Below, piece after piece: positions 56,577 to 58,494 of a stretch of DNA of 64,000 nt. The translations under genes and the position numbers were made by a program. Source of the stretch: Sphingobacterium sp. (GTDB lineage: Bacteria; Bacteroidota; Bacteroidia; Sphingobacteriales; Sphingobacteriaceae); the NCBI GenBank assembly GCA_031253985.1, contig JAIRVH010000099.1:1-64000 (forward strand). The letters are read 5' to 3'. Numbering within the stretch: position 1 is the stretch's first letter; each line of letters begins with the position of its first letter. The notes under the pieces were generated by a model that saw only the letters and a list, made by a program, of their open reading frames with translations, did not search any database and had not been told where the DNA came from.

Positions 56577-57170
56577 ATGCAGCAAAAAGAATCATACATC
56601 CATACGCTGAAAGAAGGTGATGAAACAGCTTTATGCTTTTTTATGGATCATTTTGGCCATTCATTGCGCTATTTCGCCTTTTCCTACCTCCGCAACAAAA
56701 CCGATGCAGAAGAAATTGTCTCCGATGTTTTTGTAAAGCTGTGGAATAATAGACAAAAGGTAGAAAATTATGAAAGCCTTAAAGCCTTTCTTTTTATCGC
56801 GACTAAAAATGCCTGCATTGATATACAAAGAACAGCTCAATTCAAAATACGTAAAGAAGAACTCGATATTCTGCAGCATATGTCGGTTCCGGAAGAAGAT
56901 GTACTCAAGAAAATATTCCGCACTGAACTCACCGAATTGCTGCTTGCTGAAATCAACTTGCTTCCCAGACAGCAGGCACAAATTTGCCGACTCAGCTTTC
57001 TGGACGGTTTGAACACAGAAGAAATTTGTGAAACATTGAACACCACCCCTTCGACCGTCTATTATGCAAGGTCAAAGGCATTATACGCATTAAAAGAACG
57101 GTTTAAATCGAAAAAATTTGAATACCTTACTATTATTATGCTATCCGCATGGTATGCTTTCAAGGGATAA
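56577..57170 (+). CDS. RNA polymerase ECF-type sigma factor (SigK-like Bacteroidota group)
   Basis: 197 aa. Region 2 contains RYFAFSYLRNKTDAEEIVSDVFVKLW, region 4 LPRQQAQICRLSFLDGLNTEEICETLNTTPSTVYYARSKALYAL. It ends with a hydrophobic tail (TIIMLSAWYAFKG), a frequent feature of Bacteroidota ECF factors. It is the likely partner of the FecR at 46834 but sits after the sulfatases behind its own 190-bp upstream region. A second copy of the last ten codons follows at 57217. Confidence 0.92.
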   Translation: MQQKESYIHTLKEGDETALCFFMDHFGHSLRYFAFSYLRNKTDAEEIVSDVFVKLWNNRQKVENYESLKAFLFIATKNACIDIQRTAQFKIRKEELDILQHMSVPEEDVLKKIFRTELTELLLAEINLLPRQQAQICRLSFLDGLNTEEICETLNTTPSTVYYARSKALYALKERFKSKKFEYLTIIMLSAWYAFKG

Positions 57171-57216
57171 ATACCTTCTCACCATCCTTCATATCCTAAC
57201 CTTGAAATAGATCGAT

Positions 57217-57249
57217 ATGCTGTCTGCATGGTATGCTTTCAAAGGTTAA
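57217..57249 (+). pseudogene. C-terminal remnant of a second ECF sigma factor gene
   Basis: Ten codons plus TAA encode MLSAWYAFKG, identical to the end of the sigma factor 79 bp upstream. The four DNA differences (CTA/CTG, TCC/TCT, AAG/AAA, GGA/GGT) are all synonymous. Preserved protein with changed third positions points to a diverged paralogue whose body was deleted, rather than a fresh tandem duplication. Confidence 0.6.
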
Positions 57250-57353
57250 CCTCCTTCAACCAATAGGCCACCTACAGTCTCGCATCAAATTAAAAATACA
57301 AATAGCTGTTTATCAGAATAACTAAGGGGTTGATAATTGGAAAAAACTGGAAA

Positions 57354-57397
57354 TAAAAAAAGCTTAGCATTCGGTCGGGCGACCTGCTAAGCTTTTA
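57354..57397 (-). terminator. Terminator of the sRNA candidate
   Basis: AAAAGCTTAGCA and TGCTAAGCTTTT form a 12-bp stem with an inner 5-bp stem. The longer T run (TTTTTTTA) is on the minus strand, so that is the likely direction. Confidence 0.8.
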
Positions 57398-57434
57398 TAA
57401 ATACCTCTTTGTAAGAGGCAATCAACCTAAACCT
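57354..57434 (-). ncRNA. Candidate small RNA, about 80 nt
   Basis: A consensus promoter at 57439-57471 predicts a start near 57434. The RNA would fold into a small hairpin (CCTCTT-ACA-AAGAGG) and a strong terminator hairpin, AAAAGCTTAGCA paired with TGCTAAGCTTTT around an inner GGTCG/CGACC stem, followed by a T run. It has no ORF of useful length. It is not a family I recognise. Independent promoter, compact length and matched terminator together make this a good sRNA candidate. Confidence 0.6.
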
Positions 57435-57438
57435 AGGA

Positions 57439-57471
57439 CAAAGATAATGCTTCAAATGATATAAACAAAAA
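57439..57471 (-). promoter_or_regulatory. Promoter of the sRNA candidate
   Basis: Minus strand: TTTTTG (57466-57471), exactly 19 bp, TATCTTTG (57439-57446). Both boxes and the spacing match the Bacteroidota -33/-7 consensus. Confidence 0.7.
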
Positions 57472-57903: not shown

Positions 57904-58494
57904 ATGTTTACTGGAATCATAGAAACCTTAGGAAAAATAGAAAATATCGAACAGGAGAAAAGTAATATCCATTTTTACGTCAGTTCCCCTATATCCAATG
58001 AACTCAAAATAGACCAAAGTGTAAGTCACAATGGTGTTTGTCTTACAGTCGTGGGGTTGAACAATGACCTACATAAAGTTACAGCAATTGATGAAACCTT
58101 GCAGAAGACAAATCTGGCTCAGTTAAAGGTAGGTGACTTGATCAATCTAGAACGTTGTACACTAGCCGGCGGAAGATTTGATGGCCATATCGTTCAGGGC
58201 CATGTCGATCAGACTGCCCTTTGTATCCAAAAGAAAGACGAAAACGGGAGTTTTATTTTCACCTTCCAATATGATGTTTCTAAACAAAATATTACCGTAG
58301 AAAAAGGGTCCATTACTGTAAATGGCATTAGTTTGACGGTCGTAGATTCCAGAGACGATCAGTTTTCCGTTGCAATCATTCCCTATACGCTTGAGCACAC
58401 CAACTTACAGCAGGTTGAAGTGGGTAGCACAGTCAACTTAGAGTTTGATATTATCGGGAAATATGTCACTAAAATTATGGCTTTGCGCGGTTAA
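57904..58494 (+). CDS. ribE: Riboflavin synthase, alpha subunit
   Basis: Converts two 6,7-dimethyl-8-ribityllumazines to riboflavin. 196 aa, the usual size, with two tandem lumazine-binding domains: first MFTGIIETLG and SHNGVCLTV with GHIVQGHVD, second ITVNGISLTVV with VEVGSTVNLEFDIIGKY. It stands alone rather than in a rib operon, has its own promoter, and no riboswitch is visible. Confidence 0.95.
   Translation: MFTGIIETLGKIENIEQEKSNIHFYVSSPISNELKIDQSVSHNGVCLTVVGLNNDLHKVTAIDETLQKTNLAQLKVGDLINLERCTLAGGRFDGHIVQGHVDQTALCIQKKDENGSFIFTFQYDVSKQNITVEKGSITVNGISLTVVDSRDDQFSVAIIPYTLEHTNLQQVEVGSTVNLEFDIIGKYVTKIMALRG

Follow-up and report, generated by a model that had tools for sequence, protein, structure and literature searches.

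The window analyzed here, the first 64,000 nucleotides of contig JAIRVH010000099.1 from Sphingobacterium sp. (assembly GCA_031253985.1), almost certainly contains on its minus strand a real, conserved and previously undescribed small RNA (sRNA) gene. This gene lies next to the divergently transcribed riboflavin synthase gene ribE. The gene itself, its conservation, its structure, its promoter and the seed that it shares with other units are supported in silico. We infer that the RNA is expressed, pairs with mRNAs in the cell and represses them: it is probably a trans-acting sRNA that belongs to a multi-member RNA family and uses seed pairing to repress translation, in a mode resembling that of FopS from Bacteroides thetaiotaomicron. 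The unit had been proposed earlier from the letters of the window (hereafter, the original prediction). That prediction could not foresee that many other terminator-linked units have, as judged by its sequence, the conserved 5′ single strand in common as a seed.

A terminated RNA unit divergent from ribE

Between positions 57471 and 57355 of the minus strand, a Bacteroidota-type promoter precedes an RNA whose unpaired 5′ end is followed by a small hairpin and then by that of the terminator. Promoters of Bacteroidota carry TTTG at −33 and TAnnTTTG at −7. In the window, the −33 element TTTTTG (57466..57471) is separated by a 19-nt spacer from the −7 element TATCTTTG (57439..57446), which conforms to TAnnTTTG. 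Past the −7 element, the minus strand continues as TCCTAGGTTTAGGTTGATTGCCTC; the transcript start is predicted at 57435/57434, and the predicted RNA extends from 57435 to about 57355 (81 nt). The letters at 57435-57420 are TAGGTTTAGGTTGATT, and the respective segment of the RNA (57420..57435) comprises the putative 5′ seed UAGGUUUAGGUUGAUU, recognized by its invariance in homologues, its predicted lack of pairing and the recurrence of a 14-mer in other genomes. The seed is followed by hairpin 1 (GCCUC...GAGGU, 57403..57419), by hairpin 2, which is the stem of the intrinsic terminator with an apical UCGCCCGA loop (57358..57396), and by the U tract that forms the 3′ end of the transcript (57355..57361). 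The 81-nt RNA has a folding energy of −30 kcal/mol, with a z-score of −4.8 relative to dinucleotide shuffles, and each of its first 11 nt is predicted to be unpaired with p>0.9. A generic scan for sigma70 promoters and terminators did not flag the unit, which is expected with a promoter of a type other than that of E. coli and a stem whose bulge the rules of the scan do not allow.

An initial search with 141 bases identified homologues in the genus, and a covariance model was then built from 18 distinct homologues. With this model, the sRNA was detected in 49 of the 52 sampled Sphingobacterium genomes. In two of the three genomes without a match (G153 and G191), it was seen to be missing upstream of ribE, and in the third (G251), the exact 14-mer was found nowhere in the genome. 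Outside the family Sphingobacteriaceae, the model yielded weak matches only (E above 0.002); the hairpins are genus-specific, with the seed alone traveling beyond the genus. In an alignment of 42 distinct sequences, which, being fitted to the covariance model, somewhat favors the pairing signal, 97.9% of the pair cells were standard pairs, and compensatory changes were present in 12 of the 19 base pairs (shuffled mean 7.1; none of 500 shuffles as high). Hairpin 1 contributed changes in three of five pairs (94.8% of the cells paired) and hairpin 2 in nine of 14 (97.6-99.5% of the cells paired). Shifting the pair partners along the alignment abolished the covariation signal. The promoter is similarly constrained: among 47 distinct loci, the −7 box matched the TAnnTTTG pattern at 6/6 positions in 43 and at 5/6 in the remaining four, with AGG following after 3-4 nt in every case, and TTTG was located 19-21 nt 5′ of this box in most. 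The original prediction of a promoter and terminator unit on the minus strand, with two hairpins, a short single-stranded 5′ part and no protein gene inside, is thus borne out, as are, in silico, the conserved stems with compensatory changes that it had named as a check and the conserved promoter with a fixed 5′ end near 57434.

That the unit encodes a small peptide is hardly credible. The length of the RNA alone leaves room for short open reading frames (ORFs), but no ORF of at least 40 amino acids overlaps the unit in the window, homologues differ in length by numbers of nucleotides that are not multiples of three, and covariation is seen in the stems. Sequence analysis finds the combination expected of an intrinsically terminated bacterial sRNA, namely a promoter and a terminator of its own, a conserved structure and no ORF.

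The gene ribE (57904..58494, plus strand), encoding riboflavin synthase with two lumazine-binding domains (Pfam PF00677), is divergent from the sRNA in all 55 loci, at a distance of 56-553 nt in 53 of these and about 1.1 and 1.3 kb in the other two. The sRNA had been placed between an extracytoplasmic function (ECF) sigma factor gene and ribE, which is true in the window; across the genus, the ribE side of this description stands but the ECF side does not, with an ECF sigma gene close by in only 5 of the 55 loci. The ECF linkage is incidental, and the system does not include the ECF gene. The constancy of ribE as a neighbor, together with the capacity of the hairpin to stop transcription arriving from the ECF side, could be taken to suggest a cis element of ribE or the ECF sigma gene, that is, a leader, an antisense RNA or only a terminator. 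This explanation is very improbable given that the unit points away from ribE, with 56 nt to more than 1 kb in between, and overlaps neither gene, that the ECF gene is rarely nearby, that the unit possesses its own promoter and an invariant 5′ end, and that its siblings are located far from ribE.

In the window, a 42-nt direct repeat (57137-57178 and 57216-57257; 83% identity, 79 nt apart) covers the 3′ end and the stop codon of the ECF sigma gene and resembles a partial duplication of the gene tail.

The shared 5′ seed and its siblings

The most conserved part of the RNA is its 5′ end AGGTTTAGGTTGATT, which is invariant, rather than the hairpins; within the representative set of homologues, AGGUUUAGGUUGAUU is unchanged in 18 of 18. 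Seed-pairing sRNAs have this anatomy, with a long, invariant, single-stranded 5′ end in front of a terminator; complementary sites were sought (see the next section). The apical loop of the terminator is nearly invariant across Sphingobacterium, and siblings elsewhere also have C-rich loops; this loop is possibly a second contact site.

The 14-mer core of the seed was found in 147 of the 251 genomes of the family; Sphingobacterium genomes have about two copies each, and those of two other genera (Olivibacter-like and g20) as many as 17. In the same 251 genomes, a reversed-sequence control usually gave zero copies and never more than three per genome. The window's genome contains two copies of the seed. 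The second one (locus L137, G000:C74:40850-40865) is a 16-mer located shortly 3′ of the stop codon of efp, which encodes elongation factor P, and directly before a terminator. The same 16-mer with a terminator is present 3′ of efp in many Sphingobacteriaceae (efp loci in L161-L278), and the efp-linked unit occurs in Sphingobacterium, Pedobacter, Olivibacter, Parapedobacter, Daejeonella and others. In some Pedobacter, this unit is upstream of efp, so we dropped its interpretation as a mere 3′ untranslated region (3′UTR) element and consider it a portable unit.

The Olivibacter-like genomes and genus g20 encode compact seed-plus-terminator units, for which promoter classes, assigned by eye, are inferred to be sigma-54-like (TTGGCAY-N5-TTG), TAnnTTTG or other (AACAAA...CGTTA). 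One genome (G055) contains nine seed copies, six of them with the sigma-54-like motif and one following an ORF, as at efp. Both the window's genome and the Olivibacter-like and g20 genomes, then, carry multiple paralogous units that share an invariant 5′ seed before a terminator. In Fulvivirga sediminis, which belongs to a different order (L249), five seed units are clustered within 8 kb, each behind a sigma-54-like TGGCAY-N5-TTGA motif. Prolixibacteraceae (L164, L179, L190 and L265) have a single seed-plus-terminator unit, 3′ of amylase-like genes where checked, in which a conserved TTTGGTTTTTGGTTTAG stretch precedes the seed and the terminator. In an even sample of the class, the exact 15-mer outside the family was near chance level (5 of ~380 genomes), and the exact seed was not multi-copy in any of these ~380 genomes, among which Bacteroides was not singled out. 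The wider occurrence of the seed outside the family thus appears patchy. Seed matches in non-Bacteroidota genomes, mostly inside genes, were discarded as chance and used as informal controls.

The near-chance frequency of the 15-mer outside the family and the differing bodies of the units among genera could indicate that the 14-mer is shared by convergence or chance and that the Sphingobacterium sRNA is functionally unrelated to the other units. We consider this quite improbable because, within the family, the counts of the reversed control speak strongly against chance, and in every genus the seed is placed immediately before the terminator hairpin.

Candidate target sites and proposed mode of action

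In the window's genome, a sequence complementary to the seed, UUCAACCUAAACCUA, is located ~16 nt before the ATG of a gene for a secreted DUF4964/DUF5127 protein putatively involved in glycan degradation. In the leader of this gene, the block UCAACCUAAACCU is kept in five related species (G000, G022, G005, G017 and G262), whereas the flanking leader bases vary; in G017, the base next to the block is changed from A to G and still pairs, as G-U. The predicted seed pairing at this leader amounts to −22.9 to −25.0 kcal/mol (0 of 300 shuffles as good). Two leaders in another genome, G013, contain candidate sites: with 14 contiguous pairs, the first precedes by 4 nt the start of a gene located after a SusD-like gene, and the second, a perfect 14-mer and more, precedes an aldehyde-dehydrogenase-like gene by 6 nt. 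For other exact seed complements, the distance between the end of the site and the following start is 1 nt in G042 and 8 nt in Pedobacter cryotolerans, and Fulvivirga aurantia has an exact site 7 nt before a secreted protease-like ORF. The exact complements ending 1, 6 and 8 nt before an ATG (loci L122, L142 and L207) come from three other genomes of the family. Of random positions, 0.69% are located outside genes with an ORF start 0-10 nt downstream; for three start-adjacent sites among ~20 non-sRNA seed sites in the family, P is ~3e-4, a rough figure, with ORFs called mechanically and the denominator of 20 counted by hand. At a further locus, L118 (G109:C6:1208828, genus g31), the seed is on the strand opposite the leader of a SusC-like gene; its sense context (GTGATAAGGTTTAGGTTG or close) is common to other g31 sites, so that the locus may represent an antisense sRNA and not a target.

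Several observations weigh against the seed-pairing explanation. For seed positions 12-14 and 16, pairing is predicted within the window RNA. The DUF4964/DUF5127 leader site is absent in the more distant relative G019, and no genus-wide target was found in a target search that was not exhaustive. In the window's genome, complements with up to 3 mismatches in 16 near starts were distributed equally between sense and antisense (7 vs 7), with no antisense excess, and across 31 genomes, single-mismatch sites were not above the reversed control, most of those inspected being inside genes. Given the absence of the site in G019, the targets would be lineage-specific, and few, strong, lineage-specific targets are likely from the sequences at hand.

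Alternatively, an RNA-binding protein or another RNA might bind the invariant 5′ sequence, and the sRNAs and the efp 3′ end would then serve as decoys or stability tags instead of antisense seeds. The 14-mer is indeed more rigid than pairing with varied targets requires, it is also present in efp 3′UTRs, where it could act in cis, and the near-complementary sites show no genome-wide enrichment. Such a role is nevertheless unlikely: perfect complements are found right upstream of start codons, one of them in five species with the A to G change in G017 keeping G-U pairing, and RRM_1 (PF00076), the obvious protein class from the Bacteroides analogue, was found in none of 16 Sphingobacterium genomes, while being present in 6 of 9 other members of the class and in the Bacteroides ihuae control.

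We favor the seed-pairing mechanism. A housekeeping-type promoter would drive a stand-alone RNA of ~80 nt that carries its own terminator, and the largely unpaired 5′ end UAGGUUUAGGUUGAUU of this RNA would pair with complementary sites just upstream of start codons. The targets would be a few mRNAs, of secreted glycan-degradation and other metabolic genes, at which the seed pairing would block ribosome entry. The members of the RNA family would keep the seed and vary the body and the promoter (housekeeping, sigma-54-like, other or the efp-linked unit). Because the shared seed is found behind differing promoters, different signals could feed one seed. A broader and more doubtful proposition, which we put forward only tentatively, is that one 15-nt seed, unchanged across several Bacteroidota orders, might serve many sRNAs, controlled by a variety of sigma factors, as well as the efp-linked unit, as one post-transcriptional regulon with interchangeable inputs and without an RRM_1 partner. 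Beyond Bacteroides and Flavobacterium, hardly any regulatory RNAs of Bacteroidota have been charted; an identical seed with exchanged promoters and bodies would show one RNA code wired to many signals, and the 14-letter seed is a simple handle for finding members and targets in hundreds of genomes.

Relationship to known regulatory RNAs

The absence of a known family, noted in the original prediction, holds after database and literature searches. No Rfam 15 family matched the window RNA at the gathering threshold, relaxed E-values gave chance-level matches only, and the siblings likewise matched no Rfam 15 family at the gathering threshold. Flavo-1, 6S-Flavo and Bacteroidales-1, which are also structured RNAs from the same phylum, did not reach the gathering score on the window RNA; a Flavo-1 match in a Pedobacter locus is separate, ~280 nt from the seed unit. 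In a full-text literature search, the seed sequence appeared in no paper, and none of the papers searched dealt with Sphingobacterium sRNAs.

The Qrr sRNAs of Vibrio are several RNAs with one invariant core and sigma-54 promoters. The sigma-54-like promoters of the Olivibacter and Fulvivirga members resemble this arrangement, whereas the promoter of the window member is of the housekeeping type, and no sequence relation is claimed. Rfp18 of Flavobacterium psychrophilum is, likewise, a conserved Bacteroidota sRNA with a strong structure, but is set apart by its description: it pairs through its third stem-loop, and no shared 5′ seed family is reported (PMC9723704).

FopS of Bacteroides thetaiotaomicron (with GibS) is an sRNA of ~65-70 nt that is multi-copy (14) and has a conserved single-stranded 5′ seed (PMC11697453, PMC7366714), which pairs near the start codons of glycan-utilization mRNAs (PMC11697453). 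FopS includes intergenic members and one that is 3′UTR-derived, with housekeeping-type promoters (PMC11697453, PMC7366714), and is bound and antagonized by RbpB, an RRM_1 protein (PMC11697453). The RNA described here is similar in its phylum, length, multi-copy 5′ seed, intergenic and 3′UTR-linked members, housekeeping-type promoter and predicted glycan-gene targets, the comparison being one of anatomy and description. For the pairing of FopS at the translation start of susC or glycoside hydrolase mRNAs, the conserved site in the DUF4964/DUF5127 leader and the G013 site after the SusD-like gene may be counterparts. Unlike FopS, the Sphingobacterium-type family has several promoter types, including the sigma-54-like one, and one member at efp. 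Identity with FopS is not supported because PF00076 was not found in the 16 Sphingobacterium genomes; by analogy, the view that this RNA works like FopS is supported.
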